The notes under the pieces were generated by a model. It made no database searches. It was given only the letters and a program-made list of their open reading frames with translations, and was not told the origin of the DNA. The position numbers and the translations under genes were made by a program. DNA of 64,000 nt, from positions 3,323,501 through 3,387,500 of the forward strand of contig LR590468.1 in assembly GCA_901472505.1 (NCBI GenBank). The letters run 5' to 3'. Within the stretch, counting starts at the first letter, position 1. Each line of letters starts with the position of its first letter. The DNA comes from Proteus vulgaris (GTDB taxonomy: Bacteria; Pseudomonadota; Gammaproteobacteria; Enterobacterales; Enterobacteriaceae). Shown here piece by piece: positions 12,229-40,740 of this stretch.

Positions 12229-12315
12229 GCCCAGGTGGTGAAATCGGTAGACACAAGGGATTTAAAATCCCTCGGCTGTAAGGCTGTGCGGGTTCAAGTC
12301 CCGCCCTGGGCACCA
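12229..12315 (+). tRNA. leuZ: tRNA-Leu (anticodon TAA), copy 1
   Basis: An 87-nt class II tRNA with long variable arm and CCA: acceptor GCCCAGG / CCTGGGC, anticodon loop TTTAAAA (TAA). The gene bodies of copies 1, 2 and 3 are identical. E. coli has one leuZ here. Confidence 0.97.
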
Positions 12316-12441
12316 TCTCTTTTAGATAAAGAGTATGGTGCAAAAAAGCCCATTGTGAATAATGGCATCATGTAGTAATTAAGTCGTCCATACCAGTATT
12401 TATCTTAAGTAAAAGAATTTACGGACGCACCACAGAATTTA

Positions 12442-12528
12442 GCCCAGGTGGTGAAATCGGTAGACACAAGGGATTTAAAATCCCTCGGCTGTAAGGCTGT
12501 GCGGGTTCAAGTCCCGCCCTGGGCACCA
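12442..12528 (+). tRNA. tRNA-Leu (anticodon TAA), copy 2
   Basis: An 87-nt gene identical to copy 1. Its immediate flanks (ATTTA before, ATATAAAA after) are shared with copy 3, so copies 2 and 3 arose by duplication including flanking DNA. Confidence 0.97.
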
Positions 12529-12536
12529 TATAAAAT

Positions 12537-12563
12537 ACGGACCTTAACTTAGGTCCGTTTTTT
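12537..12563 (+). terminator. terminator after tRNA-Leu copy 2
   Basis: Stem ACGGACCT / AGGTCCGT with a 6-base loop, then a T-run, 9 bp after the tRNA. Confidence 0.85.
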
Positions 12564-12692
12564 CTTCCACGACTTACTTTAGTGAAAGAAGAACAAAGAA
12601 TTAAGTTAGCTATTTTAGAAGTGAATGTTTTAAATTTATTTGTTGCCTTGTTTGATTAATAAGTATTGCCTGTAACAAGTAAATATAATTTA

Positions 12693-12779
12693 GCCCAGGT
12701 GGTGAAATCGGTAGACACAAGGGATTTAAAATCCCTCGGCTGTAAGGCTGTGCGGGTTCAAGTCCCGCCCTGGGCACCA
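12693..12779 (+). tRNA. tRNA-Leu (anticodon TAA), copy 3
   Basis: A third identical 87-nt tRNA-Leu, last of the cluster. The accessory fimbrial island starts a few hundred bases downstream, so its 3' end is a plausible integration site. Confidence 0.97.
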
Positions 12780-12817: not shown

Positions 12818-13432
12818 GATTATAAAAAAGTAAAAATTAAATTGAATACATTATATTATAGTCACTTAAGCTAATATGGTTTTATAAATTTGATAGTGAT
12901 CAGACGCTAGATATTTAAAACAGAGACGTGAGATAAATAACGATTTGGAGTGGGTTTAAGCGGGTTATAACGAATAAGTTACTGTAATTAATTTTCAGTA
13001 TGTGTAAGAAAACTTCCTCACGAATTGATGGGTTAATCCTGTACAACATATTGACAGATAGAGCTCGTCCGTAGCCGGATGTGGCTTCTTAGCTAAATAG
13101 CCGATTGCCTTCAGAATAGAAGGTATCTTTCGAAATGTTTGATGGTAAAGACGTCTATCCGTATTTTTTGCGTTAATGCAGTCCAGAAGGCGCTGATGCT
13201 GAGCCAATCACTGAAAACGGACATAAAAATTGCAGACAGTGGTTTTTTGAAATACCCAACTATTATTGCACTTCAGTCCGTGTTTTTTAATGTTTTTTTA
13301 CCGATAAAATTGAATGTGCTAAATACGAGATATTAGCATTATTTTAACCTTAATTAATAAGCGGTTATCGGATACGTTTTCTTGACTCATTTTTTGAGCT
13401 TTCATCGCTTTTTCTGAAACTGTACGCCCTTG
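12818..13432. other. gene-poor stretch at the tRNA/island junction
   Basis: About 615 bp with no gene I can support. Short open frames on both strands (12995-13207 minus, 13139-13336 plus) overlap each other and resemble nothing I recognise. No integrase, and no second copy of the tRNA-Leu 3' end, is visible here. Confidence 0.5.
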
Positions 13433-13870
13433 TTATCGTCTTTTTCGCTTATCCATCACCATGCTCTCGTCTTGTGGTGGGCAAATAAAAGAACGCGCTG
13501 AGTCCGCCACAAGATCTAAATTAATCGGAGATGACAGCGGGAGCGTCTCAATCGACTCGTTTTTGTTTTCCGTTAACATCATCAGCGGTGCTAAAAACTC
13601 CTTGAGTGAGAGATTAAAACAAAGACATATTGTGACAATAGCATCGATAGATAGTGTGGTGACGCCATTTTCATAACGTGAAACCTGTTGCTGGCTGATA
13701 CCTAACATCTTACCCAATTGCGTGCCATTTAGCGTTTTTTTTAAGCGCAATGCTTTCAACTGACGTCCGACAATAAAATCGATATCTTTTTTGAGCCTAT
13801 TCTTCCTGTAAGGCGAACTACCATAGGATAGTCCATTTTTCATTTGTTGCTGTTTTGGAAATGATGTCAT
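13433..13870 (-). CDS. MrpJ-like XRE-family fimbrial transcriptional regulator
   Basis: A 145-residue regulator with one Cro/C1-type HTH at about residues 33-90. It carries the SQQQVSRYENG recognition-helix motif typical of the MrpJ family of Proteus fimbrial operons. Known MrpJ paralogues repress flagellar genes so that motility falls when fimbriae are made. The C-terminal 50 residues are polar with no known domain. The ATG overlaps the stop of the AraC-like gene by 4 bp (ATGA), so the two are translationally coupled on the minus strand. Here it sits with the divergent regulators rather than at the end of the structural operon. Confidence 0.82.
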   Translation of the reverse strand: MTSFPKQQQMKNGLSYGSSPYRKNRLKKDIDFIVGRQLKALRLKKTLNGTQLGKMLGISQQQVSRYENGVTTLSIDAIVTICLCFNLSLKEFLAPLMMLTENKNESIETLPLSSPINLDLVADSARSFICPPQDESMVMDKRKRR

Positions 13871-14853
13871 TCTGCTCTCTCCAATGGGTTTAATTGCGTA
13901 TTATGAAAATGACCTTGCTCTTGAGCTTGAAATTGCATTACCGTTTGATTCCGCAGCTTTTTAAATTGTCGATTTGCCATACGTAGGTTGGCGAAACCAC
14001 AACTCTTGACTAAAACATCCAAATCAGTATCTGGCATATTCCGGATGGTCATCGCCAATAATTCACAACGAGCAGAAGCCAGTAATTCGGAGAAAGACAG
14101 CTGATAGCGAGCCAGTTTGTACTGCAATATGCGTATTGACATACCGTAGTAGTCGGCTAATTCGTTGATACTGTAATGGGGATTAGTCATATTCTGGCGT
14201 ATCAAGTGGGCAATAGCACAAATATCAAAATTGGGAATAATATTTGTTTTGTTAAAATTACACGGACAGGTGACTTGCTCACTTTGTAAGGTAAGCAGTG
14301 TTTTTATGCCATTAAGTAATTGCTTGTAACATCCATCGCTCAGGGGGGCATAATAATCACAGAGTAAATTATTGACCATATTGCCATAACGTAAATGGTT
14401 GCCGACTTTCCAAAACAGTTCTGACAAGGACTGGCGTTTCAATCCTGTCTCATGAATATCAAGATTAAAAATCAGCCCATAATGATGAGATAGACTCTTT
14501 AACGTGAAAGGCTCCCAAGCGGGAATGAGCATATAACTACCTGCAGGAAGATGGATATCTTTCTTTTTCGCATTGACAATCAAGCTGGACAACGAATGAA
14601 TGAGCACGCAATGTTGTTGGCAATGTGAGGCACAATCCGCATGAATGAAATGCGTGGTATGGGTAAACATATCCAGTTTAACGGCTTGAATAAAAGGTAA
14701 AGAGGTAAAGGTATCAACACAAATCGAGCCTTTAAAAAGTGGGTTAAGTGCGGTGACATTGACCTGATGAAAAGCAAGATAGTCAGTCAGCATTTGCTGG
14801 CAAAGTGGAATATCGGTGATATTTTTGACGTTAATCCGATGTTGGTTATGCAT
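13867..14853 (-). CDS. AraC-family transcriptional regulator of the fimbrial island
   Basis: About 328 residues. The C-terminal part (about 220-315) is an AraC/XylS DNA-binding domain: SINELADYYGMSIRILQYKL is the first HTH and CGFANLRMANRQFKKL the second. The N-terminal region has no domain I can name. I chose ATG 14853, preceded by CAGGGA 9 bp upstream; the frame is open to 14901 but has no ribosome-binding site there. It lies between a PapI-like gene and an MrpJ-like gene, all facing away from the fimbrial operon, so it probably regulates fimbrial expression. The effector is unknown. Confidence 0.78.
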   Translation of the reverse strand: MHNQHRINVKNITDIPLCQQMLTDYLAFHQVNVTALNPLFKGSICVDTFTSLPFIQAVKLDMFTHTTHFIHADCASHCQQHCVLIHSLSSLIVNAKKKDIHLPAGSYMLIPAWEPFTLKSLSHHYGLIFNLDIHETGLKRQSLSELFWKVGNHLRYGNMVNNLLCDYYAPLSDGCYKQLLNGIKTLLTLQSEQVTCPCNFNKTNIIPNFDICAIAHLIRQNMTNPHYSINELADYYGMSIRILQYKLARYQLSFSELLASARCELLAMTIRNMPDTDLDVLVKSCGFANLRMANRQFKKLRNQTVMQFQAQEQGHFHNTQLNPLERAE

Positions 14854-15016
14854 AATGGTGTATCCCTGAAGCAATACTAAAAATAATGAATTTAATAACA
14901 TATTGTTTTTTTGATTTTTTAATAAAGATGAAATGTTTATGTTAGTGTTGTTTATATTTACATTTACCTTTGACTCACTTTTTCTGTTTAATTTGTTATG
15001 CCGGATTGAAGGTTTT

Positions 15017-15247
15017 TTAGGGTAATATCCAACTAATCTTCCGACCTTGATGGGGTTTACTGCGTTTAATCAATCCCTGTAGATGAAGAACACCCAAACA
15101 ATAGCGAGCTTTGTAGACGGAAATACAAAAATGTAAAGCAACTGACTTGGTAGTGAACGGTTGGTTTAACACACCTCGTTGCTCGAGGAATTCTAAAAGC
15201 TGTTCATAAGAAATCAGTTGATTGGGTTTGAGTGTTTCTGCGGTCAT
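15017..15247 (-). CDS. PapI/FaeA-family fimbrial phase-variation regulator
   Basis: A 76-residue winged-helix protein of the PapI/FaeA family. After an N-terminal extension, the core SYEQLLEFLEQRG-TTKSVALHFCIS-YKARYCLGVLHLQGLIKRS matches the PapI pattern (helix, KTAEIAEALAVT, YQARYYLLLLEKAGMVQRS). PapI binds with Lrp at GATC-containing sites and moves Lrp between promoter-proximal and distal sites. The ATG is preceded by AAGGAATTGCC. As in pap, it is transcribed away from the pilin operon across a long regulatory region, which here contains two inverted GATC boxes. The assignment rests on fold-level similarity plus this context. Confidence 0.82.
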   Translation of the reverse strand: MTAETLKPNQLISYEQLLEFLEQRGVLNQPFTTKSVALHFCISVYKARYCLGVLHLQGLIKRSKPHQGRKISWILP

Positions 15248-15890
15248 GGCAATTCCTTAATCTCTAAAATGCAAAAGGCACAACAAGGTATCAATCCTAC
15301 GTTATGAAAGAGGAATGCTGATGATTAAATCTACTCATAGAGCACGGATTTTCATCGGTCTTCACAGTACGTGTTTGTACTTATATTTTAGCCATCATAG
15401 AAAGGCTTTCCCCTATTTTTTCATTTCATTATTCGAGTTAAAATGAATAAACATACTTATTTCTAAGCATTATTTTAATTTATTAACATTATATGAATAT
15501 TGAACTGGATATAAATAAATTGATTTCCATATTGGTTATTACGCAAAATAAATTAAAAAGAGTCAATAAAATAAGAAATAAATAAAATTTCGTATTTCTT
15601 CTTATTTTATTCGCAATATGGTTTTTTGTTTAAATGGTTTGATGTATATCATTTTTATGTTGACTAAAAAAAACATTAAATAACTTTCCTTATACAATTA
15701 ATTTCTTATTTCCATAATTTATTATCAATATAATGTATTGATTATATTGCATTATTTTATTTACTTTTTAGTTTATAAGTTATTCTATCGAGATTGTGAG
15801 CTATTTATTGTAAACATTATTTAATTTTAATTATTTTTAAGTTATGACGTCTTTTGTTTCAGATTTTATCAAATAATAATTTTTATCATT

Positions 15891-15910
15891 TTTACGATCT
15901 TTTATTTTAA
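15891..15910 (+). promoter_or_regulatory. distal GATC box (pap-type Lrp/PapI/Dam site)
   Basis: TTTACGATCTTTTATTTTAA on the plus strand, GATC at 15896-15899. ACGATCTTTT is, from memory, the core of pap-family GATC boxes. It is inverted relative to the proximal box and exactly 102 bp from it. Confidence 0.75.
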
Positions 15911-15989
15911 TCAATATGTTTTTTCAACGTGTTTAATTCTTAAATTAAAAACAAAATAGAGATTAAATACTTTTTCTTGTTTTTGATTA

Positions 15990-16010
15990 GACATAAAGAT
16001 CGCAAATAAT
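15990..16010 (-). promoter_or_regulatory. proximal GATC box (pap-type Lrp/PapI/Dam site)
   Basis: On the minus strand ATTATTTGCGATCTTTATGT, GATC at 15998-16001. It shares CGATCTTT with the distal box in opposite orientation. The site centre is about 50 bp upstream of the predicted pilin transcription start, like the proximal site of pap. Confidence 0.75.
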
Positions 16011-16014
16011 CAAT

Positions 16015-16043
16015 TTGATAGTAAATGTGACCAAGATTAAGAT
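16015..16043 (+). promoter_or_regulatory. predicted fimbrial operon promoter
   Basis: A -35 TTGATA (16015-16020) and -10 TAAGAT (16038-16043) separated by 17 bp. A third GATC (16041-16044) overlaps the -10 end. The inferred transcript start near 16050 leaves a leader of about 145 nt before the pilin ATG. Confidence 0.55.
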
Positions 16044-16194
16044 CCGTATGATTAGGGTAAGGAAATTCCTACCACTAGCCTTAATTGAATAAGCGGGTTC
16101 GATAGAGCAATTATATTCGTGATAGGTGTGGTAGGCGTAATTTTTAAATTCATTTTTAGTACGTTAATCATTCAATAAATAAGGATAATAAAAT

Positions 16195-16758
16195 ATGAGT
16201 TTTACAGTAAAAAAAGTAGCTTTGGCGGTCGCAGCCTGTTCAGTGATGGCGTTATCTGCATCATCAATGGCAAGCACGCTCGTCTTTACCGGTGCGGTAA
16301 CATCGTCTACCTGTGATGTGCAGGCGGTTTCGTCAGCAGGTGTTGTCACCCCTGAAATCCAGTTAGGGAATGTTGCTCCCGACACCACAACTGCACTTCC
16401 CGTTGCAGTGGCTTTTAAATTATCCCCCATTAATACAGCATCTTGTACTCAAACTAACGCAGATATTACCTGGAGTTCTCCTAACTTAATCCAGGCAGGT
16501 CTTGCGAATACTGGCACCGCGACCGGAGTTCATATTGAGTTGAAACCTCAAGCAACAGGTAACGCTCTTGATGGCGCATCAGCTGTTCATGCGAATGATG
16601 TTATCAGAGGGGGATTAAATACGGTCAAATATTCAGTTTCTACTGGTACACTTTCCGGTTCATTCGATTATACCGCTCAGTTAGTGCGCGACGCAGGTGC
16701 GACACCTACTGCAGGTACTGTTGGTTCAATGGCCACTTACACCGTTGCCTACTATTAA
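16195..16758 (+). CDS. major fimbrial subunit (chaperone-usher pilin)
   Basis: A 187-residue secreted pilin. A Sec signal peptide occupies residues 1-26 (VKKVALAVAACSVMALSASSMAS, cut after ASSMA). The mature part has the pilin disulphide pair (STCDVQ near 40 and ASCTQ near 83) and ends with the alternating C-terminal donor-strand motif YTVAYY. First gene of the operon, with AAGGATAATAAA before the ATG, and separated from the usher by a hairpin; both features suit the most abundant subunit. It resembles minor and major FimA-type pilins, but I cannot assign it to a named Proteus fimbria. Confidence 0.88.
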   Translation: MSFTVKKVALAVAACSVMALSASSMASTLVFTGAVTSSTCDVQAVSSAGVVTPEIQLGNVAPDTTTALPVAVAFKLSPINTASCTQTNADITWSSPNLIQAGLANTGTATGVHIELKPQATGNALDGASAVHANDVIRGGLNTVKYSVSTGTLSGSFDYTAQLVRDAGATPTAGTVGSMATYTVAYY

Positions 16759-17231
16759 TTACTGTTTTTAATTTATTAAATAAAATAAAACCGTGAGTTA
16801 AAATAATTGAAGTAGAAAAAAAGAGATAAATAGAAAGCCTTCTTGGTTTTCCACGAAGGCTTTATATATAAATAAGTTTATATCGATATAGGTATCATTA
16901 TTTTTGATAGTAGCGCTGTATTTTTTAGTACATATTTACAACAGGGTAACTGATTGAATCTATTTACTTTTATTTATTAACTCAATAGGTTAAATACTTT
17001 TAATTCCTATTTATTTTTTCTTGGTCAGTTTATGAAATTTTCAATGTGAAAATAAAAGTAAATAGCGAAAGATTAAAGTCGAGCGTGGCGCCAGAAATAA
17101 CCAACGTGGTTAAAAATTAAAATAAGCAACAAGACGCAATTAATAACTTTAATCAGTATTCGGTGACCATTAAATAACTTAGATAATGGCGTATTCCGGA
17201 GCTGTTGAGTGGTAAATTCAGGGGAATTATT
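16759..17231. other. pilin-usher intergenic region
   Basis: 473 bp without a gene. It contains a hairpin about 75 bp after the pilin and AT-rich sequence. In pap-like operons such a spacer lowers usher expression relative to the pilin. Confidence 0.5.
16834..16863 (+). terminator. hairpin after the major pilin gene (attenuator or mRNA-stabilising)
   Basis: Perfect 9-bp stem AAAGCCTTC / GAAGGCTTT with a 12-base loop. The following sequence is ATATATAAAT, not a T-run, so read-through into the usher is expected. The position matches the stem-loop after papA. Confidence 0.6.
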
Positions 17232-19874
17232 ATGCGAAAAGGCAGGAATAAAAACAGTTCCTACTTATCAATGACGAGGATTAACAGCATCAATATCAGC
17301 AACGGGACTTCCCATGCATTGGTGTTTTCCACTAAATCAGCCTGCTCTGGTAATAGCCGGCGATTTCTCTTTATAGGGTTTAAGCTCAATACGTTCACTC
17401 GTTTACTTTGCTTGTCTTTCATCCCCGGGTGTCTTGCTCTATCCTTGACGGCAGACGCCACTGAACTGAACCTTAATTTTATCCACGGTACAAACAAACA
17501 ACACGCTCCCGCTATTTTGCAAGAAGGCACTCGGTTTCCATCAGGACAGTATGTCGTTGATGTCGTCTTCAATCATCAGCCATTATCGCGCCAGATGTTG
17601 ACGATTAGCGCTGAAGATGCAAAAACGCTGTGTTTAACACCAGACTGGTTGAGCCAAGCACACCTATTGCTAAACTTAGACATGTTTAAAGCTCAATATA
17701 ACCGTGATAGAGACTGTTACCGCATTGGTGAATATCCTGCGGCATCGGTTCGTTTTGATTACGGGACTCAAACATTATACATCAGTGAACCGCAAGTGAC
17801 GCTACTGACGTTAGAGGCCGGTGATGATTGGGATTATGGCATCGCAGGTTTAAAGCTTCGTTACAACACCAACGTCAGTAAAGGTCAACAAAGAGAAGCG
17901 GTGTATTACGGCAACATTGACCTCAGTGCGAATGTCGGTCGTTGGGTGCTCAGTGGTAGCACCAGTGGGTTTTCAGGACGTGGCTTTGAATCACCACAAG
18001 CGATGGTATCCACAGTGGTTGCGCCTTTACGGGGTAATTTAGAGCTCGGGAAAACGCGCACTCGCAGTACATTGATGTCAGATTTTGGTTTCTATGGTGT
18101 CTCGCTACGTTCGGATAACAGTATGATACCGTGGTCTACACGCGGGTACGCGCCCATTATTTCTGGCGTGGCAAATAGTAAATGCACGTATTACGGTAGC
18201 GCAAGGTGGATATACTCTATCCTCTCAGGTAGTTCCTCCCGGTGAGTATGCACTGAAAGACATTTCACCCATTGGTAATGGCGATATTACCGTGACGGTA
18301 GAGGAAGAAGATGGGAGTCAAACAACACGAGTCTACCCGGTAACTACACTCCCTACTTTATTAAGAGCCCATGATTTTAATTACAACTTGTCAGTCGGTA
18401 CGCGTAGTGATGACAGCCAAACCAAAGGGGTATTTGTTGCAGGTAGTTTAGACTATGGTTTTGAACCGGCAACATTAAATTTGTCGGGTATATTACATCG
18501 ACAATATCAAGGGGTAGGCGTTGGGCTCAGTCGCAATATGGGGCAAATGGGGGGCATTAGAGGGCAGTGTTAACTTCTCTCGCAGTGTGTTTGATAACCA
18601 TGAGCCGTATTCACTTCGATTGTCTGCGCATACAGATGATCCACAAGAGCAAATACAAAATGCACGTAATGATTGGTTGTGGAATAGTTACAGCGGAGGG
18701 AGATTGGCATCCGGTCCGCAAACGGGGCTCAGTGCTACGATAAAATACGCCAAAAGTCTGGGAGAAAAAACGAATCTCCACCTTCTAACGTGGCGCTACA
18801 CGGGGGAAAAATATGTGGACTTTGCCAGTTTTCAATCCGCGTCAGGTTTGGCTAAATGAAAATCGCAAGGAACGCTATGAAGCAACGATTAGTCATGGTA
18901 TCGGGAGCTCATACCTCAATTTCTCTGGATGGACACAAAGTTACCGGAACCGCAGTAGTAATGACAGTGGGGTGAATACCTCCTTCAACACGAGCGTAGG
19001 GGCGGCAGCGGTTGGGTTGTATGCCAGTTACAGTCACACCCCTTGGTCACCCAATGACTACAGTCTTTCGATGAATGTCAGTATTCCGTTTGATATCGCA
19101 GGTAAGCAGCAGTTCAGCTCAACAGGCATTAATTATTACCGTAACAGAGGCACGCAAATGAACACATCCGTGTCAGGCAATCCGACTGAGAACATGAACT
19201 ATAACGTCAATGCCAGTGTAGGGCGCGATAACCGCAATATTTCTGTATCTGCAGGATATGCGATGGATACATTGCAACTGAGGGGGTCTCTGACTCAAGC
19301 CCATTACCGTTATGGCGGGAGCCAGACCTCGAGTTCACTGAGTGCTTCTGGGGCGGTGTTGGGAACGACCGAAACGGGCTTGATGTTTACTCGTGAACAA
19401 AATGCGACGGTGGCGGTGGTGAAAATTAAAGATATCCCCGGCGTGACATTTAATGGCTCTCGACCCACAAGTTACCGAGGGGTAACAGCACTTCCTTTAT
19501 CGGAGTACAGCCGAAATTATATCCGTATTAACCCGGATAACGTCCCAGATAATATTGACCTTTTAGATACGGTGTTCAGTGTTGTTCCGACGCGTCAGGC
19601 GATTGTGTACCGAGAGTTTGGTTATACACAGGTGAAGCGGTATGTATTAAGAATGACGGGGGTTGATAGAAAACCGCTTCCTCAAGGCAGTACGGTGTTG
19701 ACCTCAAACGGATTAGATGTGGGGTTTATCACCCAAGGCGGTGTTTTCTTAGCTAACTTGTTGACTGAGCCAGATTTTTTGACCGTAACGACTCCACAGG
19801 GTACACAGTGCCGAGTGAATATGACGGGCGTAAAACCGGATGCAAGAAATTTGACGGAGGTACATTGTGAATAA
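17232..19874 (+). pseudogene. fimbrial outer-membrane usher (three frameshifts)
   Basis: FimD/PapC-type usher that exports pilins through the outer membrane. The start ATG 17232 follows CAGGGG. In order: N-terminal domain from about residue 75 (ELNLNFIHG, FPSGQYVVDVVFN), beta-barrel with plug, and C-terminal domains ending TEVHCE. The frame breaks three times, each fitting one extra base: AAA at 18180-18182, a G6 run at 18549-18554 and TTTT at 18829-18832. Removing them gives about 879 codons, near the usual usher length. All three are homopolymer insertions, so sequencing error is likely, but real inactivation would abolish the fimbria. Confidence 0.85.
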
Positions 19875-20595
19875 TGAGTCTTTACAAAATAGTCGACATT
19901 GTCCACATGACCTACAAAATGAGCGTTTGGAAAAAAAACGCATACAAAGTGATTTTTGTCTCTTGCGGGTAACGATATTAACCATGGGGTTGGTGGCATT
20001 GATGTTAGGTGGCGCCATCACGTTGTTAATCCAGCAGGCAATTGCAGCAGGAACAGCGAGTACAATATTGACATTGAAATCTCGAGTGACGCGCGCCACG
20101 TGTAACATTCTCACCACCGATGGAGGTGTAGTACAACTGCCCACGATAAGCCCCACGACGATAGGCTCTGGTGAATGGCTAAGTGCGGTGACACCACTCA
20201 ATATTGGTGTGAATTGTTCATCTGAACCCGAATCCTGGCTGACCCTGTCGATGTCGGTGACGCCAACCTATACACGCAGTGGTGATTACGGCAGTGACAA
20301 TGATAAAGCCATTGGCTCTCGGCGGCCAGAAAACACAGCGGGACCGGATTTATTTTTGGTTGACAGTGATAACGGTCATCAATGGGTATCATTTACCCCT
20401 ATTTTAGCGAAAAGCCAAACAGATTGTGACCGGTATCCCGGGCAGTCTTGCGTGAATATGACGCCCCTGTTTCCAGGGAATTATCGTTTGCCCTTGGGGG
20501 TGCAGATGGTAATTCCGGTTGGTGATATACGCAATGAGATGATAGCCCCGGGTCTTTGGCAAGCAACCCTAAATATCGATATCACTTACCAATAA
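19867..20595 (+). CDS. minor fimbrial subunit
   Basis: A 242-residue pilin-like protein. The GTG start overlaps the usher stop by 8 bp and has GGAGG 6 bp upstream, so it is translationally coupled. An unusually long cytoplasmic N-tail (about 35 residues) precedes a hydrophobic signal/anchor segment (LGGAITLLIQQAIAAG). The remainder is a pilin fold: RVTRATCNILT and NIGVNCSSEP carry the conserved Cys pair, and it ends ATLNIDITYQ. An internal ATG at 19984 would give a conventional signal peptide. Probably an adaptor or tip-proximal subunit. Confidence 0.78.
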   Translation: MNNESLQNSRHCPHDLQNERLEKKRIQSDFCLLRVTILTMGLVALMLGGAITLLIQQAIAAGTASTILTLKSRVTRATCNILTTDGGVVQLPTISPTTIGSGEWLSAVTPLNIGVNCSSEPESWLTLSMSVTPTYTRSGDYGSDNDKAIGSRRPENTAGPDLFLVDSDNGHQWVSFTPILAKSQTDCDRYPGQSCVNMTPLFPGNYRLPLGVQMVIPVGDIRNEMIAPGLWQATLNIDITYQ

Positions 20596-20685
20596 TGAGC
20601 ATGCGCAAATTCATTTGAAACGACGGTAGATAACACATAAAACATCACCGATAACACACCATCGAGAACACAATAAGGACAAATA

Positions 20686-21386
20686 ATGATGATATATCGA
20701 AAACTGGGCTTCCTGTTAGTGGGGCTTCTGATTAGCAGTCAATCTATGGCGGCATTTACCCTCAACGGAACCCGGTTTATTTACGAAGGTGGAAGTAAAA
20801 ACAGCTCATTTGAAGTTACGAATCATGCAACTGATATGTGGGGTGGTCAGGTCTGGATTGACAATGTCTCTTTGCCGACAGATACCGTAACACTGATACC
20901 CGCTCCCACCTTTTTTAAGGTAGACGGTGAACAAAAGCAAGTTGTTCGCGTGCTGAATGTGAATGATAGCGTCTTACCTAAAGATAAAGAAAGTTTATTT
21001 CGCCTGAATGTGCAGGAAATTCCACCTGCCCCGAAAACGGGAAATAATGTCTTATCGCTGGCGATGAACACGCAAGTTAAACTGCTGTATCGTCCTGAAG
21101 CACTAAAAGCAGGTCGATCCGATGCAGAAAAACAGTTGCGTCTTGAGCAACGGGGGGGGAACAGTGTGTTGGTTAACCCGACCCCTTATTATTTTGCTGT
21201 GATGAAATTGTATGCGGGGCTTCAGATAAAGCACCGGTGATACCGACGTCTGCTCAGTCAACAGAAGCATTGAATACATTGGCACCGCATACTGAAGTAT
21301 CGTTGGGTAAAACGGTGACACTACCCATCACCATGACGGCAGTCGATGATTACGGCGCTAATCGCAACTATACCCTCGAGAAATAA
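20686..21386 (+). pseudogene. periplasmic fimbrial chaperone (one frameshift)
   Basis: PapD/FimC-type chaperone that folds pilins by donor-strand complementation. Signal peptide residues 1-22 (LVGLLISSQSMAA), first Ig domain with TRFIYEGG, the exposed VVRVLNVN strand and FRLNVQEIPPAP, then VKLLYRPEAL, all typical. The frame stops at 21240, but the rest of domain 2 (AQSTEALNTLAPHTEVSLG... ending RNYTLEK) continues in another frame to 21386. One missing G in the run at 21216-21219 explains it. About 233 residues when repaired, the normal length. Sequencing error likely. Confidence 0.85.
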
Positions 21387-21410
21387 CAGAAAATAGAGAG
21401 TCATTGTGCG

Positions 21411-22064
21411 ATGAAAATAAATGAAGATAACCGAACTAAAACGGATGTGAGTGAACATCAAACTTGTTGGTCACTGCTCACGGGGGCAGGTCTGGCACTT
21501 TTATTGATGGTTGGATTGAGTCGTGACGCCAGCGCGTTAACCATTACTATTCCGTATGATTATACCATTACGGCAAATACCTGTTGGTTAAGTCCTGAAA
21601 CCAGCGGAGGCTCAGGTTCATTTGTGGGGCAATTTGGCGATTTTACATTGGCATGGGATGGTGCGCTCGGTACAAGCGATGTTACGGGCTACACAAAAAG
21701 CATGAAGACATTTGGTTTCAATATGAACTGTGATGGTGATATCTATCAGCCGAGGCTAACCATTACCGCCACAAATCCTCAATATGATGAGCCTTCTCAT
21801 GTGATGTACACAACGGATACAACGAATTCAGCGATGGGATTTGCGATTCAATTTAATAACGATAATACCGACAGAACGCAATTAAATCCAAGCATAACCC
21901 CCACCAATGGAATGATGATTAATGTGTCTGAAGTTAACCCGGGTAACGTAAAAGTTATTCGACTGAATGCATGGCCCACATTAATGCCTGATAAATCAAT
22001 TAGGGATATTACGGGTGGGATGGATGTCAGAGGAACCGTGACGATTGAAGTGCGGTATAACTGA
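21411..22064 (+). CDS. minor fimbrial subunit
   Basis: A 217-residue secreted protein between the chaperone and the last pilin gene. A polar N-tail of about 18 residues precedes a hydrophobic signal (LLTGAGLALLLMVGLSRDASA). Two Cys residues (ANTCWLSPE, NMNCDGD) are spaced as in pilins, and the C-terminus alternates (GTVTIEVRYN). Little else is recognisable. Probably an adaptor or tip component; no lectin-like N-terminal domain is apparent. Confidence 0.7.
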   Translation: MKINEDNRTKTDVSEHQTCWSLLTGAGLALLLMVGLSRDASALTITIPYDYTITANTCWLSPETSGGSGSFVGQFGDFTLAWDGALGTSDVTGYTKSMKTFGFNMNCDGDIYQPRLTITATNPQYDEPSHVMYTTDTTNSAMGFAIQFNNDNTDRTQLNPSITPTNGMMINVSEVNPGNVKVIRLNAWPTLMPDKSIRDITGGMDVRGTVTIEVRYN

Positions 22065-22076
22065 GAGAGGGGCACA

Positions 22077-22691
22077 ATGAAGCTATCCATATTCCCTGTT
22101 ATTCGGCTGACGTTGGGGTTGTTCTGTATCATCCCGGGAGTGAGCTCTGCTGAAACGGTCGCGACGGCAGTCTATCATTTAAGCGCAAAGGTGACAGCAT
22201 CAACTTGTGAAACACAATTGGCGACATTTAATCACGTTAGTCCCGATATTGACTTCGGTCTTTTAACTGCAGAAAGTCCGGAAAAAACAAAGGAAATAAC
22301 TTTAGTGCTTGACTGTAGAATTTCTCCTTTTATGCCCCAGACCATAAAGCTCTCATTTGAGCCCTCTGCCACGGGTTATGTTGACCCCAATAACGAAGGA
22401 AGACTCTATTCAAGGGTATCAGGAAGTTCGCCACAATCGGTAGGAACAGGACTGTACTACGACTGGCAATGGGGTAATAACCTTAGCATAGATAATACAA
22501 TTTCGGTAAATAAAATATTTCCCTATACGGCCATAAACCTCAGAGAAAACTCAACGAACACGTATACTCTAGTAGAAGGAGGCGATGTTTACGATTTTTC
22601 TATTCTTATCACTCGGAGAGTGAATGATTTTTCTGAGGTAACAGCAGGAGAGTATGAGACATCGGTGACAGTGAATATCAGTTATCAATGA
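22077..22691 (+). CDS. minor fimbrial subunit
   Basis: A 204-residue secreted pilin. Signal peptide residues 1-25 (LTLGLFCIIPGVSSA), Cys pair in VTASTCETQL and LVLDCRIS, C-terminal donor-strand motif VTVNISYQ. The ATG follows GAGAGGGG. The stop overlaps the start of the next open frame (ATGA), a reverse-transcriptase remnant. Confidence 0.75.
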   Translation: MKLSIFPVIRLTLGLFCIIPGVSSAETVATAVYHLSAKVTASTCETQLATFNHVSPDIDFGLLTAESPEKTKEITLVLDCRISPFMPQTIKLSFEPSATGYVDPNNEGRLYSRVSGSSPQSVGTGLYYDWQWGNNLSIDNTISVNKIFPYTAINLRENSTNTYTLVEGGDVYDFSILITRRVNDFSEVTAGEYETSVTVNISYQ

Positions 22692-23377
22692 CATATGAAG
22701 ATATAAATAGCCTAAGCGTAGAAAAACGGAGGAATGATGAACATCTCTGGGCGTTATGGCAACAAGTAGCCTGTTGGTTGTGGAAACAACTCAAACCGCA
22801 GGTGGATACCCTGTTTTGCCGAAATGTTGGCGAACCGATACTGCGGGATCTGTTCAGGCAATACTTATACTACAGCATAGAAGATGGTGGTGAAATAGAG
22901 ACGCCTAAAGTTGGGATAGCGAGGAGCTGTTCGCTCAGCCCCTTGGTAGGAGCGAGTTTATTATACCATTATGACAGCGATTTTGGATAACGAGAGGGGA
23001 TTTATTATGCTCGCTATATGGATGATTTTATGGTGCTTGCGAAAACCCGTTGGCATCTGCGTCGGAGTATTCAGTAGCTTAATGAATACATGGATATCGG
23101 TAGTTTTGAAGTACATCCGGATAAAACCTATATAGGCCGGATACAACACGGATTTGACGGGTTAGGTGTGTATTTTGATAGAACGGGTATCACCGGACTC
23201 AGTGAAAGAGCAATAAAACGGCATCGAGAACGGTGTCTGCGACTTTACGAGCAAGCATGTTGTGATGGACTGCCTGAGGCAGAGATTAATGAACGTGTGC
23301 AGGCATATCGGGCCCGATGGAAAAATATGTATGGGGATTGTTGGATTCTCAATAACAACGTATCAGTACGTAGCTAG
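22688..23377 (+). pseudogene. decayed reverse transcriptase (YMDD) remnant
   Basis: One reading frame (22688-23377) encodes the C-terminal part of an RNA-directed DNA polymerase. It contains an altered GISxGCPLSPL motif (GIARSCSLSPLVGA), then YYARYMDDFMVLAKTRWHLRR with the catalytic YMDD, and PDKTYIGRIQHGFDGLG. The frame carries two in-frame stops: TAA at 22988-22990 just before REGIYYARYMDD, and TAG shortly before LNEYMDIG (near 23077). The N-terminal half with catalytic motif A is absent. This is genuine decay, not a homopolymer shift. The family resembles unclassified group II intron-like or retron-type RTs. The ATG overlaps the upstream pilin stop. Confidence 0.75.
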
Positions 23378-23749
23378 CAAAGCGGTATGAGAAAAGGGGT
23401 ACGTCATAACCAGTCGTTTCCTTTTCAATTTTGTTACTCCTATACGATAATTCGCCAATTACTGAAGCGAACTTAATTGCACTTTATTACCCATGAAATT
23501 AATAACTAAACATGGTAAGGGCATGATGACCCTCCTAAGGCCCGACCCGATAATGTAAGTCCTGGGACGACACGTCCTGTCTTTTATTGCCGATCTAGAT
23601 GATATTGCCGATCTAGATGACTCACTAACATAGCTCTCGACGATCTCCATGTGATTTCTCTTTCGTTAAATCATATGGTCATTCTTTCTATCTAGATCTA
23701 ATGTTTGGTGAGATGTTACTATCTCTACTACTTATGGAATGTTAAAAAT
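23378..23749. other. non-coding junction after the RT remnant
   Basis: 372 bp with no supported gene. It contains an 18-bp tandem duplication (23586-23621) and scattered stop codons in all frames. Confidence 0.4.
23586..23621 (+). repeat. 18-bp tandem duplication
   Basis: ATTGCCGATCTAGATGAT is repeated directly at 23586-23603 and 23604-23621, with the last base changed to C. Each unit contains GATC and CTAG. Origin unknown; it may be a replication slip or an element scar. Confidence 0.8.
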
Positions 23750-24370
23750 ATGCAATCGATCCTTAATTTTCTTTTTATGACACTCTCGTTAACCACCGTC
23801 CCTGTCTATGGTGCCTCCGTGGTTTTCCAACCCGTTAAACCTAATTTTGTTATGTGTGGCTGCACAGGAGTATTTGCCGATACTCGTACCACATGGGGAA
23901 CAGCATATATGTTACCTACCCGCGCCCTCAGTACACATACTGCATCAATTACCACACTATCTTTAACACAAACTTCTGTCTCGATCTCCCCTCAATATCG
24001 TAATTACGGTGTATTTATCAATACGGGGACATCAAAAGGCTGGATTGACCAATCCACATACTTCTACAACCGCTCAACAATCGAACTCCTATATGTCCTA
24101 TCGCACGATTACAAGGTACCGATGTAGTGGGTAGGGTGTTATCAGCTTGGTCTTCCGACGCTGTTTCATCCGGGTGTTCACCTTCAAACACCCCCCTCCC
24201 CATTACTCAGTGCGGCTAATTTGACAGATCTTGTTTTCGAAAACATTAACTTTTCCGAACCCATTGAAACTCGATTACTTCCTGGTAGACATACCGGAAT
24301 GTATCAAATTGAAATTCCTGAATCGCTAACTGATCAGACTTGTTCATCTATGAGTCACCATTACTTTTAA
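23750..24370 (+). pseudogene. secreted protein fragment, possibly fimbrial, disrupted
   Basis: Starts MQSILNFLFMTLSLTTVPVYGA, a clear signal peptide, followed by SVVFQPVKPNFVMCGCTGVF. The first frame stops at 24127. Coding-like sequence continues in other frames: ARLQGTDVVGRVLSAW with SSGCSPSNTPLPITQCG up to about 24220, then LTDLVFENINFSEPIETRL to SHHYF at 24370. So the gene is broken at least twice. The Cys content and position after a fimbrial operon would suit an adhesin or extra subunit, but I recognise no family and the call is tentative. Confidence 0.45.
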
Positions 24371-25089
24371 TAGATCCCGTGATTCTACGCTAAATCAGAA
24401 TTTGATGAGGAGAGCGTGAAGGATGAAATTATTGCTTGCAAAGAAAAGGGTATAACAGCGCTATCTGGTGCGAACTTTCCTACCTGATTTGTTGGAGTCT
24501 TGTATGATCATTAACTCTTTGAAAAGGACTATACCCTTTCTGGTGAGATTCATGTCTGGTAGCGCTTGCTAAGTTAGGTTAAACCCTGTCTGGATTTCGA
24601 AAATTTATATGTGTTAAACCTGTTTTTTTATCAGTTATCTTATGAACAACATCCCGAACGCTGAAGTAAACAACTTCGCAATTGGGACTACTTACAGGAG
24701 GTTTATATGAACCGGAAAGAGAGGTGGCATAGCGTAATTTTATTACAATAGGCGGCAATTTCCTTGAAAAACAGAGTGATGTACTATCAATCATGTTCAA
24801 TAATTATCCGTTGCTTATCTACGCCCAGAGGGAAGAGAGAACAGCAAGTGAATACTGCGCGATCACTACATCTCCTTAATGTTGCACCTCACATTCCCAT
24901 CAACACTAAAGGGTCGCTATACTGTTTATCACCAATTATTCCACGGAATCTAAATATTTGTGCCAAAATAAAAAGAAGAACTATAAAAATTAATAACCGA
25001 TAATCAGGTTGTTTGGGAAAAAATAATATTTAATAAAAAGCTTTTATAAATATATTACTAGCCAATAGCAACAATAATAAATGAATGTA
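24371..25089. other. degraded sequence without an intact gene
   Basis: About 720 bp. Short coding-like stretches appear in several frames (for instance EESVKDEIIACKEKGITALS near 24410, and NFLEKQSDVLSIMFNNYPLL near 24755), but each is closed by stops. None is identifiable. It looks like old coding DNA decaying between the fimbrial island and the iron transporter. Confidence 0.4.
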
Positions 25090-26161
<1,072 letters not shown>

Positions 26162-26354
26162 TTTTTCCCATCCCTGTTATTGTTTTATCAGAAAGATAGT
26201 AATGACTTATCTATTTTGATTTTTAAATATTCTAGAATAGTTAATCACCGCTCCTCAGTCATATTTCATTCTCTGTTTAGCGATAAAGTCTATGGGCTTA
26301 TTTATTAAATCAGAAAAAAGATGAGAGGTACGCCCACTCATAAAGTAAATAATT

Positions 26355-26388
26355 TTATATTCTCATTCCCATTCTCATTATGATAAAG
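26355..26388 (+). promoter_or_regulatory. possible Fur box upstream of the iron transporter genes
   Basis: The stretch ends ATTCTCATTATGATAAAG and holds several partial repeats of the Fur hexamer (GATAAT / ATTATC type) directly upstream of the binding-protein gene and in the divergent spacer. Iron repression is expected for FbpABC systems. The match is by eye and partial. Confidence 0.4.
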
Positions 26389-26424
26389 TATTTTGGTTTA
26401 CAAATCGATACATGAGGCTAATAA

Positions 26425-27444
26425 ATGAAAAAAAAGGTATCAGCTGCTTATTTCATCACTTACACTCAGTGGTGTTTTATTTTCAGAAATCGCTCAGGCT
26501 GACTTGTTAATTTATAATGGGCAACATAAGGATGGCGGAATAGAACAGGTTGCTGCGGAATTTACACAAAAAACAGGGATCCCGGTTAAGTTAAAATACG
26601 GGTAAGTCTTCCGAACTTGCCGGTTTACTGAAGGAAGAAACAGGATAAATCCCCGGCAGATATTTTTGTTGCGGAAAGTACAGGACCTTTCCTGTCATTA
26701 AGTGCTGAAAAATTATTAGTACCCATTAATGCCGATGCGTTAACCAATGTGAATTCTGAGACTATCCCTTCCGCATCGAAACAGGATTTTGTTCCCATTG
26801 GCGTTCGCAGCCGTGTTTTGGCCTATAATCCGGATAAAGTTAAAGAAAGTGACATTCCTAAAACATGGACAAAAATGGTAAATGATCCTGCGTGGAAAAA
26901 TCGTTTTTCTTATCACCCGGGATCAGGTGCGCTTGTTGATCAAATAGCCGTTTATAAAAAATTACATGGATTAGAGGCGACAAAAGCGTTTTTAGCTGCG
27001 ATGAAAGAAAATGGTCAATCAATCAAAGGGCATATGGCTGCGTTAAAGAAAATCGATCAGGGTGATTTGGATGTTGCAATGATCAACCAATACTATTTAT
27101 ACCGTCTTTATAAAGAAAAAGGCGGTGCAGACAATGTTAAGGCAAAAATTTACTACATGCGTAATGGCGATGCAGATTCAGCATTAAGTTTTTCTGCTGC
27201 CGGAATATTACGTTCATCACAACATCAATCGGAAGCACAACAGTTTATCACTTTCTTAACGAGCAAGGCAGGACAGGAACTGTATGTCCAAAATTCGGCA
27301 GAGTGGCCGGCCAATACTCAGGCCGTATCGCCAGTGAGCTACTTAGTGAAACTTGATAGCCTGGATCCGCCTAAAACGTCATTTACAACTAAGGAAGAAA
27401 GTGATGAGGCAAAAGCGTTAATAAAAGAGGCTGGGATCCAGTAA
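26425..27444 (+). pseudogene. ferric-iron periplasmic binding protein, FbpA/HitA-like (three frameshifts near 5' end)
   Basis: Binds Fe(III) in the periplasm for import. Signal peptide (LLISSLTLSGVLFSEIAQA) then LLIYNGQHKDGG, AAEFTQKTGIPVKLKYGKSSELAG and PADIFVAESTG, closely like HitA/FbpA. From 26749 the frame is clean to the stop and includes the Tyr-rich iron-ligand region (MINQYYLYRLYKEKGG). Three one-base insertions break the 5' third: an A8 run at 26428-26435, GGG at 26600-26602, and a G at 26643-26644. Repaired length is about 338 residues. Likely sequencing errors, but the neighbouring ATPase is also heavily broken. Confidence 0.82.
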
Positions 27445-27493
27445 TACAATTAATCAGAAAAATTATTTTTTCAATGAGATAAAAGGAGCTGGT

Positions 27494-29036
27494 GTGTTTT
27501 TTCATACCAGAAAAACAAAACAACCGCCGTTACTTCTGGCGGTTGTTATTGTGATTATTACATTACCAATGTTATTACCCATTCTCTATATTTTACAGTA
27601 TGGAATAACGTTAGATATTCATCAGACTTATCACCTTATTTTTCGTGCAGAAACATTTTTACTTTTACGAAATACGTTACTTTTGTGTTTTACAGTGACA
27701 TTGATAAGTGTGTTATTAGGGGGACTATGTGCATTTTTACTTGAACGTTGTCAGGTAAGAGGAAAGAACTTACTCAGTGTATTAATTAGTTTACCTCTTT
27801 GTATCCCGGGTATTGTCAGTGGCTTCACCTGGTTTAGCCTTAATACACGCATTTTTTCAGGCTTTTTAGGGGCAAGCCTTGTAATGACGCTCGTGTCTTT
27901 TCCATTAGCATTTTTACCTATATCAGCTGCATTAAAACGCATTGACTCAACGTGGGAGGAAGTGAGTTATTCATTAGGGCGTTCCCGGTTTTATACTTTT
28001 CTTCATGTCCTGTTACCGCAATTAAAACCCGCAATAGGCAGTGCTGTTCTTCTGATTGCTTTGCATTTACTGATTGAATTCGGTGTTATTGCGATTATGG
28101 GTTATGATACTTTCAGTACCGCTATTTTTGCAGAATTTGAGGCTTATTATAATACTCAGACGGCTGCGGTACTCTGTTTTGTCTTGGTGCTTTTATGTTT
28201 ATGCATTATTGGTTTTGAATTAAAAATCCGAGGACAGGCAAATCGGGTTCGTTCAGGTAAGGGGGGTTGTTCACCCACCAAAACTTATTTATTTAGGTTA
28301 TGGAGAGTGGTTTGTCATTGGATTTGTTTCTTTAATTTTTATTTTAGGTGTTGTTGTACCTGTCATTGTGTTATGTCAGTGGATTTATGAAGGAACGGCC
28401 ATTCATAGTGAGTATTTTTCCTGGAAAACCTATTTTAACGTCATTGCCGATACGATATTTATTTCGTTAATTTCTGCGGCAATAACAGTATTGGTTGCGT
28501 CCCCTTTAGTCTGGTTTTCTGTTCGTTATTCGAGTTTTCTCTCCCGGTGGCTGGAGCGCTTACCTTTTATTTTACACGCAATTCCATCGATTGTTGTTGG
28601 TTTGGCTATTGCACGATACACGGTCTTATATGCAGGTATTTTCTATCAGACCTATTATGTGTTAATTCCGGCCTATTTGATGCTTTATCTGCCATTAGCC
28701 CAGACAACACTGCGCTCTGCTGTGGAGCAACTTCCTTACCATATTGAAGAAGTTTCTGATTCTTTAGGGCAAAAAAGAGCCACTTTATTAATGCGGGTTA
28801 TTTTACCCTCAGTCCGTCCTGGAGTCATTGCCGGGCTGGCACTGTGCTTTTTGCAAATGATGAAAGAATTAACTGCAACTCTTATTTTATCACCTGCGGG
28901 TATGTCAACAATCGCCATTGAGATTTGGCATGCTCAGGAAGGTTTATCTTATTCTATAGTTGCTGTTTATGGTCTGTCTTTAATTTTATTTTCAGGTATT
29001 CCGGTTTATTTATTGAAAAGACATTACTCAGGGTGA
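27494..29036 (+). pseudogene. ferric-iron ABC transporter permease, FbpB/HitB-like (one frameshift)
   Basis: Fused two-domain permease with about 12 membrane segments. Two EAA-type cytoplasmic loops are visible: EEVSYSLGRSRFYTFLHVLLPQLKPAI in the first half and EEVSDSLGQKRATLLMRVILPSVRPGV in the second. The GTG start at 27494 has AAGGAG 6 bp upstream. A G6 run at 28261-28266 shifts the frame; removing one G joins the halves (GVVHPPKLIYLGYGEW) into about 513 residues, normal for FbpB. It lies 49 bp after the binding protein in one operon. Confidence 0.82.
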
Positions 29037-30054
29037 ATAGGTTCGTGATACTATTTTTGTCACTTAAGATATCAACTGGTTGCCTATTTGGGTATTGCTA
29101 CCTACTATTTTTACCACCTCAGAGTGCTGATAACCAAGCATGCTTGATAAGCACTCTGGATTTGATGAGCGCATTCACTGCCACTGACGACACTGAAACA
29201 CCTGAAACGCTTTTCAGAAATGAAACTCGGCGTTAAACATCTGCTGTCCATCATCTTAATGGGGGCAGCAGGCGTTGCGGGATAAACCCAGTGAACATAA
29301 CCCGTCGGTACGTGAAGTAGTGCTAGTGCAACGCTGTGAGATGGTGCAACTTTGCCCGCTGGATAATGACCTGGAGGACTTTATTACCTTTAAGTTTGAC
29401 CGGGCAGGTAAAAAAGCCGGTGAGGCCATTAATGGCTTCTGGTATTCAGATGATACGCGAAAAGATGACCATCAAAACCGGGCATCAGCCGTACACCAAG
29501 CAGGATGTGTATACCAGTAATCTGTATCCCCTGACCATTGGTAACCTGATGGTTGCGGCAATGAATACCGTGGCTGAAATGGGCGTCCTCGTCATTAATG
29601 GTGATATCATCAAAATTGTCACATCACAAACGCGCTGACCGCCTGATACCTGGGCATATTCCCATGCGAAATCGTTTCATTACACTAGGTGAAAACTGAA
29701 AGAGGCGGTCGTACAATACACCAATCGATATGACTATCACCGGGGTTAAGTACGAAAGCATGGCAAGCTCTGAGATTTACGTGTTTCTGCGGTTCAGATT
29801 GTCAGAACAGGGTTAAGACGTCCCCATAATGAACCCAGGGTGTCCGACAATAAAATTGGTGAGTAAATGTTTCTTACACATACTGAAAATTAGTGACAGT
29901 AACCTGTCTTTCTATATCCCCGAATTTATCGCGCGTTTCTATTTCAAATATCTTACGTCTAATCATGATAGTGTGTAAAATAAAAAATCACCTTATCAGT
30001 TGTGGCAATAAAGGTGATTTATATTTGATATTGTTTTGTCTAAGTGATCGCCGA
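29037..30054. other. unidentified, foreign-looking remnant region
   Basis: About 1 kb. From roughly 29140 to 29760 base composition rises above the surroundings. A protein-like frame can be stitched together: LCPLDNDLEDFITFKFDRAGKKAGEA in one frame, then MTIKTGHQPYTKQDVYTSNL to IIKIVTSQTR (stop near 29638) in another, joined around 29455-29465. An upstream piece reads HLLSIILMGAAGVAG. I do not recognise any family. It may be a fragment of a mobile element or prophage. A minus-strand terminator closes the region. Confidence 0.4.
29982..30020 (-). terminator. terminator of the glycosyltransferase gene
   Basis: Stem AAATCACCTT / AAGGTGATTT with a 16-base loop. On the minus strand it is followed by a T-run, 35 bp after the glycosyltransferase stop. 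Confidence 0.75.
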
Positions 30055-39194: not shown

Positions 39195-40740
39195 TTATGG
39201 AATAGCAACTAAGCCTATTTCATAAAACCAATGTGTTGCAGGAACAAGCCAGAACTCAACCGCCAGCAAACCAAATAATGTCATTACGATAGTATATGGC
39301 AGTGCCATTACCACCATTCGTCCATAGGATAAACGGATAAGTGGAGATAATGCGGAGGTTAATAAAAATAAGAATGCAGCTTGGCCATTTGGTGTGGCGA
39401 CAGAAGGTAAGTTTGTCCCTGTATTAATAGCAACACCAATATGTTCATATTGTGATTGACTAATTAGTCCATCTTGTAATGCCGTTAAGGCTTCACTGAT
39501 ATAAACCGTACCGACAAACACGTTATCTGAAATGGCAGACAATAGACCATTAAATAGATAGAAGAGTGAGAGTTGTGAGGACTCTGAAGCTTGGAGAACA
39601 AACTGAATAATTGGACCGAATAATTGTTGGTCAATAATGACGGCGACAATGGAAAAGAATACTGTCAATAATGCAGTGAACGGTAATGCTTCTTCAAATG
39701 CTTTACCGAGCGCATGTTCTTCTGTAATACCACAAAATGCTGTTGCAAGAATGATAACAGATAAACCGATAATACCGACTTCTGCTAAATGAAATGCTAA
39801 AGCAACAATTAACCAGATCCCAATTAGTGCTTGAACCATCAGTTGTGCTTTTTCTTGAGAAGTGCGTTTTTTACTGTTTTTCTTATCATACTCGGTTAGA
39901 ACTTTACGAACTAAATCAGGTAGTTCAGCACCATAACCAAAAAGCTTAAAGCGCTCTACTAAATAGCACACAGCAAGACCTGCAAAGAAAACAGGAATAG
40001 TGACAGGTGACATTCGAATAAAGAAGGTCACAAAATCCCACTCTAAATGTTTTGCAATAATCAGGTTTTGGGGTTCACCTACCATGGTCATTACGCCACC
40101 TAATGCAGTACCTACACCAGCATGCATCATTAAGCTACGTAAAAAGGCACGGAATTGTTCTAATGTTTGTTTTTTCTCTGCGGTATCAATAAATCCATCA
40201 TTATTTAGCTCTGTTCCTGCTTGGTTAGAAGCAAAATTATGATAAATAGAGTAAAAACCGAGAGAAACACTGATCACAACAGCGATAACGGTTAAAGCAT
40301 CTAAAAAGGCAGATAAAAATGCACTTGCAAAGCAAAAGGCGATAGACAATATTCGTTTAGAACGAATGGATAAAAGCAATTTGGTAAAAGCAAAAAGCAA
40401 TAATTGTTTCATAAAATAAATACCCGCAACCATAAAGACCAGAAGTAAAATAACTTCAAGGTTGTTGGCAATTTCATGACCAATTTGTTTTTGGGCTAGT
40501 CATTCCAATAATGACGGCCTCAATGGCAAGTAATCCTCCGGGTTGTAATGGGTAACACTTTAACGCCATAGCTAGTGTAAAAATAAATTCTACAACTAAT
40601 AGCCAACCGGCGACAAAAGGGTCAACAAAGAAAAAAATCAGTGGGTTGATAATTAAAAAAGTAAGAATAGCAAGCTTATACCAATCGGGAGAATTTCCCA
40701 TAAAGTTCTTTAGTAATGCTTGTCTTATACTCATATCCAT
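39195..40740 (-). pseudogene. nhaB: Na+/H+ antiporter NhaB (one frameshift)
   Basis: Sodium-proton antiporter of the inner membrane, about 12 segments. The N-terminal part ([57 protein letters not shown]) and the rest from [21 protein letters not shown] are in different frames. One extra base in the T5 run at 40488-40492 causes this; removing it restores [18 protein letters not shown] and about 514 residues, the expected length. Sequencing error is likely. Divergent from fadR, as in E. coli. Start 40740 chosen by alignment. Confidence 0.9.

Follow-up and report, generated by a model that had tools for sequence, protein, structure and literature searches.

Does the fimbrial operon on a genomic island of Proteus vulgaris stand under a Pap-type epigenetic switch, and could such a switch still work? 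Pap-related phase-variable operons are defined, in a published account, by two GATC boxes at a distance of 102 bp together with a PapI-like protein (PMC2909390), and both are present in the sequence of the P. vulgaris locus. An earlier note on this DNA had proposed that the operon uses the methylation-based switch of pap. We analysed the whole stretch of 64,000 nucleotides around the locus (the window; coordinates count from its first base), and consider it probable that the region is a Pap/Pef-family epigenetic switch that arrived on an island together with a Pef-like fimbrial operon. Very likely, the switch region is related by descent to the Pap-family switches. We lean towards the view that it is still able to switch transcription, and we doubt that a functional fimbria results from it in this strain.

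A fimbrial operon and its control region on an island

The control region lies between a papI/faeA-like gene and the pilin operon and includes the following features.

15017..15247, minus strand: papI/faeA-like gene of 76 aa, divergent from the pilin operon (PF04703 FaeA)
15248..16194, no strand: regulatory spacer of 947 bp with 23.9% GC (composition count)
15895..15902, plus strand: distal GATC box, GATC at 15896, sequence CGATCTTT (box score and layout)
15995..16002, minus strand: proximal GATC box, GATC at 15998, inverted CGATCTTT, 102 bp from the distal box
16015..16043, plus strand: predicted pilin promoter TTGATA-17-TAAGAT (promoter scan, -10 position)
16041..16044, plus strand: third GATC, overlapping the last three bases of TAAGAT (16038-16043); not a Pap-type box
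16050..16194, plus strand: leader, some 145 nt long, predicted to form a strong hairpin (folding prediction)

The window holds GATC sites at 15896, 15998 and 16041, and a letter scan of positions 13517-18637 found no others in that region. A direct count upheld the earlier reading of the first two as inverted copies of one box, 102 bp apart; the proximal GATC is 197 bp from the start of the pilin gene. The divergent gene had also been read correctly as PapI/FaeA-like: its product matches PF04703 with 38 bits (E 2.1e-9, cut-off 20.7), and it is the only FaeA-family gene found in the P. vulgaris genome.

These features lie on an island of 17.07 kb (12899..29965, no strand), between a tRNA-Leu array and conserved genes. 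The island DNA is absent, with both flanks present, at all 18 informative sister loci (a 19th, in G006, was too short and was left out), some of which have other unmatched DNA there; in sister G004 the flanks meet directly. The sequence TGATAGTG stands at both island ends (12891-12898 and 29966-29973), these brackets being our reading of the alignment. The GC content is 0.403 in the island and 0.370 in the flanks, and no near match to the island was found in plasmid or E. coli collections. The site empty of island DNA in the sisters bears out the fimbrial island that had been proposed, and the proposed Proteus-like host agrees with the flanking DNA, which matches two Proteus mirabilis records at 81% identity along 83% of a 24-kb segment; the host is probably a Proteus other than P. 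mirabilis. Three tandem tRNA-Leu(taa) genes (window 12229-12779) adjoin the island, and their copy number seems variable among sisters. Inside the island, positions 25509-29036 encode, as fragments, a solute-binding protein, two permease pieces and an ABC ATPase piece, transporter genes that we would guess to be of iron type. A perfect 18-nt tandem duplication with a GATC in each unit was seen at 23585-23620.

The fimbrial genes downstream of the control region are as follows.

16195..16758, plus strand: pilin-like gene of 187 aa, open frame (PF00419)
17205..19874, plus strand: PefC/AfrB-type usher in frames 3, 1, 2 and 3, three frame breaks (NF011760 pieces)
19867..20595, plus strand: fimbrial-subunit-like gene, weak (PF00419 E 0.0062, below cut-off)
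20686..21380, plus strand: PapD-type fimbrial chaperone in frames 1 and 3, one frame break (NF011758)
21411..22064, plus strand: fimbrial-subunit-like gene, weak (PF00419 E 0.0013, below cut-off)
22077..22691, plus strand: fimbrial-subunit-like gene, weak (PF00419 E 0.0056, below cut-off)

All three of the usher pieces searched match NF011760 best and, being pieces, fall short of its cut-off. The chaperone piece passes NF011758 (252.8 against 248 bits), which we take to be the PefD family, and the best NCBIfam match of the pilin is PefA, with 42 bits far below the cut-off of 227. Since the usher pieces are of the PefC/AfrB type, we regard the operon as probably Pef-like; it appears to share with pef of Salmonella this type of usher, the NF011758 chaperone and, weakly, a PefA-like pilin. 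The C-terminal piece of the usher has a match elsewhere in one of 19 sister genomes, G017. That genome encodes a Pef-like operon (L168:3435-10199) that starts with an HTH_3-like gene and has an open usher frame of 791 aa. A GATC pair of the CGATCTTT type is missing there, as is a close PapI-like relative; on sequence grounds it is a differently regulated relative within the same genus. The P. vulgaris genome itself gave 17 usher matches besides the window usher, several of them adjacent pieces of apparently split ushers. Inverted repeats were observed between the pilin and usher genes, at 16827-16870 (20-nt arms, 85%) and at 16960-17065 (16-nt perfect arms, 74 nt apart), and perhaps set the pilin to usher ratio.

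The broken frames raise the possibility that the locus is a relic, in which the switch DNA can still be recognised but the operon is in decay and the switch no longer serves any use. We place this slightly short of an even chance, and it is compatible with the main reading of where the region came from. The three breaks in the usher and the one in the chaperone speak for it, as do the ABC-transporter genes at 25.5-29 kb, which are in short pieces, and the coverage by ORFs of at least 250 aa, which is 24% for positions 13000-30000 and averages 61% over ten 20-kb samples from this genome. So do relatives of the 76-aa protein, sought among 5.8 billion proteins by a search that requires shared exact words (E ≤ 0.001). 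Three close relatives were found, one of them full-length at 83% identity and the others shortened to 60 and 45 aa; the 60-aa relative departs from the common sequence after residue 31 in a frameshift-like manner. No match to the protein was found in 19 sister genomes at E 0.001. On the other side, the frames of the papI-like, AraC-like, HTH_3 and pilin genes are open, and two of the 14 flanking core genes, nhaB and dadA, are also broken while open in the three sister genomes compared, so that assembly error may contribute.

The breaks in nhaB and dadA (window 39195-40797 and 42089-43471) are caused by insertions of one base within or next to short homopolymers; they are possible assembly indels and call for caution with other breaks in this genome. 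A reading of the frame breaks as clear pseudogenes, favoured from the ORF coverage, was therefore dropped. With these core genes broken too, decay and assembly error are indistinguishable, and the breaks in the usher and chaperone may reflect either or both. Given that usher and chaperone lie in several frames, the fimbria may not be made.

The PapI-like protein and its partners

The 76-aa protein is a weak phmmer match of the PapI structure 2htj (E 0.034), and is 25-38% identical to six PapI/FaeA-type proteins, with nine columns invariant in all eight sequences aligned. An AlphaFold model based on three sequences (mean pLDDT 78) has three helices and one strand of at least three residues. By its score over the PF04703 cut-off it is a PapI-like protein, encoded near the boxes. 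In sister G017 a weak FaeA-family match, at 22.2 bits just above the cut-off, falls in a 229-aa frame and was not counted as PapI.

Two further putative regulators follow the papI-like gene on the same strand.

13867..14901, minus strand: AraC-like regulator of 344 aa, downstream of the papI-like gene (HTH_18)
13433..13870, minus strand: HTH_3 regulator of 145 aa, after the AraC-like gene (HTH_3 E 3.4e-12)

The match of the AraC-like product to HTH_18 (E 1e-6, 29.3 bits) is below the curated cut-off of 33.6. On a plasmid of Edwardsiella tarda, the gene for a relative of this protein (29.5% identity) precedes a PapB-type gene and fae operon by about 2.2 kb, so that an AraC-like neighbour is not unique to the Proteus locus; no CGATCTTT-type pair was found at that fae locus. 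The HTH_3 protein is 38% identical over 60 aa to the product of the first gene, also HTH_3-like, in the Pef-like operon of G017, and we presume it to be MrpJ-like. The papI-like, AraC-like and HTH_3 genes may be co-transcribed.

Genes for the general partners of a Pap-family switch are present in the genome: Dam (TIGR00571, 315.7 bits) and Lrp (NF008370, 341.2 bits) are both over their cut-offs. PapB is a different matter. PF03333 had no match in the genome itself or in any of 20 genomes of the genus, a set that may or may not include P. mirabilis, and did match the E. coli control genome. A PapB-type first gene, as in the papI-papBA arrangement of pap, is thus missing here; in ten reference operons the promoter is followed by a PapB-type gene, and in P. 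vulgaris by the leader and then the pilin. An MrpB of P. mirabilis is named PapB-like in a review (PMC12388093). In pap, as described, PapB up-regulates papI (PMC11316696), and with no PapB this up-regulation must be missing or replaced at the present locus.

A second alternative is that the PapI-like protein is a repressor like PefI, or acts mainly on other genes such as those for motility, and that Dam and Lrp are plain regulators of an operon without a heritable switch. The usher pieces are of the PefC/AfrB type. PefI, the PapI homologue of Salmonella pef, is described as a repressor (PMC12388093), and the pefI-srgD genes were partly responsible for the loss of motility in hha ydgT mutants (PMC3224193). 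The further regulators downstream of the papI-like gene, on its strand, would also suit this view. Yet inverted boxes at 102 bp are the described signature of pap-related phase-variable operons (PMC2909390), and the papI-like gene is divergent as in pap and not at the end of the operon, where the FaeA-like gene of the Salmonella plasmid locus L137 is found. We hold this alternative to be unlikely.

Returning to the heritable switch that we prefer, its polarity need not be that of pap, because the operon is Pef-like and PefI is reported as a repressor; the PapI-like protein could be either an activator as in pap or a repressor as in PefI. In pef, the GATC sites that precede pefB are targets of Dam and Lrp (PMC6844306). 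The Proteus locus differs in that it lacks pefB and has its PapI-like gene upstream and divergent.

The GATC boxes in other genomes and the promoter

By itself the 8-mer CGATCTTT is not over-represented in the window (three copies, 2.08 expected), so the significance is in the arrangement of the boxes and not in the 8-mer. We scanned 392 genomes of the bacterial family for CGATCTTT-N77..107-AAAGATCG, equivalent to GATC spacings of 87-117. The pattern occurs at 28 places in 26 genomes, and a peak was found at 102-103. Six places have a spacing of 102 and two of 103, while the other 29 spacings share 20 places, an off-peak background of about 0.7 places per spacing. Some of the 28 places are not independent of each other: at spacing 87, four of the 20 off-peak ones come from a single coding sequence shared by four genomes, and a Yersinia-like locus present in two species accounts for two of the eight at 102-103. 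The only place in the P. vulgaris genome is the one reported here. A reversed pattern matched in three of the 392 genomes; because it contains CTAG, which is seldom found in such genomes, it is not a neutral control.

Gene context was inspected for seven of the eight places at 102-103, leaving out one at 103 (G265, C78) and the 20 off-peak places. Five of the eight are at fimbrial genes: the window, L144 with PapI-like, PapB-like and pilin genes, L159 with PapB-like and pilin genes, and two places whose DNA is the same as that of L016 and of L073. The other two inspected places are the Yersinia-like locus, whose inverted CGATCTTT pair at 102 bp is conserved between genomes (L022:6402-6509, from Y. 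frederiksenii, and L164 and L166:1501-1608). There the pair lies in a spacer that precedes a small lipoprotein-like gene, with a LuxR-type gene nearby; no fimbrial gene appears among the ORFs listed for L022 and L164. That pair is either due to chance or a Pap-type box outside fimbriae. When the exact pattern was searched in one genome per species across bacteria and archaea, at least 116 stretches were found, two of which, among the matches listed, match the fimbrial proteins of the window (Edwardsiella hoshinae and Salmonella enterica subsp. diarizonae).

We further compared the boxes to those of 13 PapB-type operons. Ten include the box pair, six at 102, three at 103 and one at 104 bp. In L239, L241 and L139 no pair was found; these were counted as misses, so the layout is not universal even among PapB-type operons. 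Four of the ten references were obtained via the pattern itself and are not independent of it; one came via a PapI-like match, one via an usher match, and four via DNA similarity to the PapI-found one (among them L235, at 96% identity). A matrix from the six pattern-independent references ranked the distal box 6 and the proximal box 4 of the 1510 GATC sites, counted by strand, that 264 kb of this genome contain, and a matrix from all ten gave the two boxes ranks 1 and 2. They score 12.0-17.3 on their own matrices, and the third GATC -4.9 to 2.1. The region 15860-16060 has no DNA similarity to E. coli genomes, even at E 10, and homology to the Pap switches thus rests on the boxes and their layout. 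The afa, daa and fae (K88) operons of E. coli (L140, L235, L236, L237 and L240) share the box sequence and the spacing, at 102-104 bp; all five have a PapB-type first gene, unlike the Proteus locus.

The promoter TTGATA-17-TAAGAT proposed earlier was recovered by our scan near the position expected in the family, although by itself it is weak. It is one of seven promoter-like sites where shuffled sequences give 11.7, i.e. the scan is at chance level in this AT-rich DNA, and its -10 is weak. Some support comes from its distance. Counted from the proximal GATC, its -10 starts at 37 nt, and in the ten references the best one starts at 34-38 nt (scan range nt 26-45 only, ties broken towards 36); an exact TATAAT is present in three references, at 35 or 36 nt. 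In pap the promoter is located about 50 bp downstream of the proximal GATC, and the predicted promoter shares the downstream position. The suggestion that the GATC at 16041 adds a methylation input is speculation: its box scores are those of the third site given above, and none of the ten references has a GATC overlapping the -10. The predicted fold of 16050-16197 has -33.1 kcal/mol (z -2.69; 2 of 200 shuffles as good). No good CRP site like that of pap was found, the best having 7 of 10 consensus bases, nor any terminator-like site in 14850-17210. Inverted repeats around the promoter are AT-rich and imperfect, for example 15713-15731 with 16179-16197 (19 nt, 84%; 25 of 43 repeats listed). Invertible-promoter fimbriae such as mrp and fim have inverted repeats on both sides of the promoter and a recombinase gene. 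Among the 25 of 43 repeats listed no clean pair brackets the promoter; on these repeats an invertible promoter is not supported, though still conceivable.

That the GATC sites stand as they do by chance in DNA rich in AT, and that the true regulator is the AraC-like or HTH_3 gene or an invertible promoter, could draw on the ordinary frequency of CGATCTTT, on the Yersinia-like pair with no fimbrial gene seen and on the imperfect repeats that bracket the promoter, but is highly improbable and was set aside on the spacing counts and box scores, the off-peak background being low and the pair lying between a FaeA gene and a pilin gene, with both boxes high-scoring and a -10 near the family distance.

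The proposed switch and its meaning

Of the pap likeness that the earlier note had put forward, the box architecture, the PapI-family gene, Dam and Lrp hold; the missing PapB and the Pef-like usher do not fit it, and the polarity of pap is not assured. Against our main reading weigh, besides the missing PapB, the lack of DNA similarity to E. coli, the weak -10 and the poor CRP site, the broken usher and chaperone frames, the shortened relatives of the PapI-like protein, the G017 operon and the three PapB-type operons that have no pair. In published accounts, pap of uropathogenic E. coli likewise has two GATC boxes 102 bp apart with a PapI-family gene (PMC2909390), which is read divergently (PMC12388093). 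The spacer of pap is shorter, 416 bp (PMC9820224) against the 947 bp of the Proteus locus. The latter also differs in the pilin coming first, with no PapB, in the extra GATC in the -10, and in the AraC-like and HTH_3 genes after the papI-like gene.

On the model of pap, as described in PMC9820224 and PMC11316696, Lrp would occupy either the proximal or the distal box and shield the GATC there from Dam, and methylation of the free box would stabilise this choice. The PapI-like protein would shift Lrp between the two boxes. Lrp at the proximal box would silence the pilin promoter, and Lrp with the PapI-like protein at the distal box, the proximal GATC being methylated, would lead to transcription. 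For the P. vulgaris locus we infer Lrp binding, methylation states and switching. Because PapB is missing, feedback onto the papI-like gene would be absent or come from elsewhere, e.g. from the AraC-like and HTH_3 genes. A bolder version, in which the papI-like, AraC-like and HTH_3 cassette replaces PapB feedback and ties fimbriation to motility, and in which the Dam site in the -10 acts on RNA polymerase as an extra memory, seems to us improbable.

A further comparison is the MR/P fimbria of P. mirabilis, probably of the same genus, which is switched by inversion of a promoter segment and has an mrpJ-type gene linked to its operon (PMC9820224). The HTH_3 gene may resemble that mrpJ-type gene; the manner of switching would differ, and of the repeats listed only imperfect AT-rich ones bracket the promoter of the P. 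vulgaris locus. In searches of an openly licensed PMC library, which does not extend to subscription papers, no report of a Pap-type Dam-Lrp switch in Proteus was found.

The peak in spacing suggests that a single pattern could find this type of switch in unannotated genomes, with the other spacings as its control. If the switch works, it would extend Lrp-Dam-PapI switching to a genus in which fimbrial phase variation has been described as DNA inversion, and nature would provide a test of whether heritable ON and OFF states require PapB.
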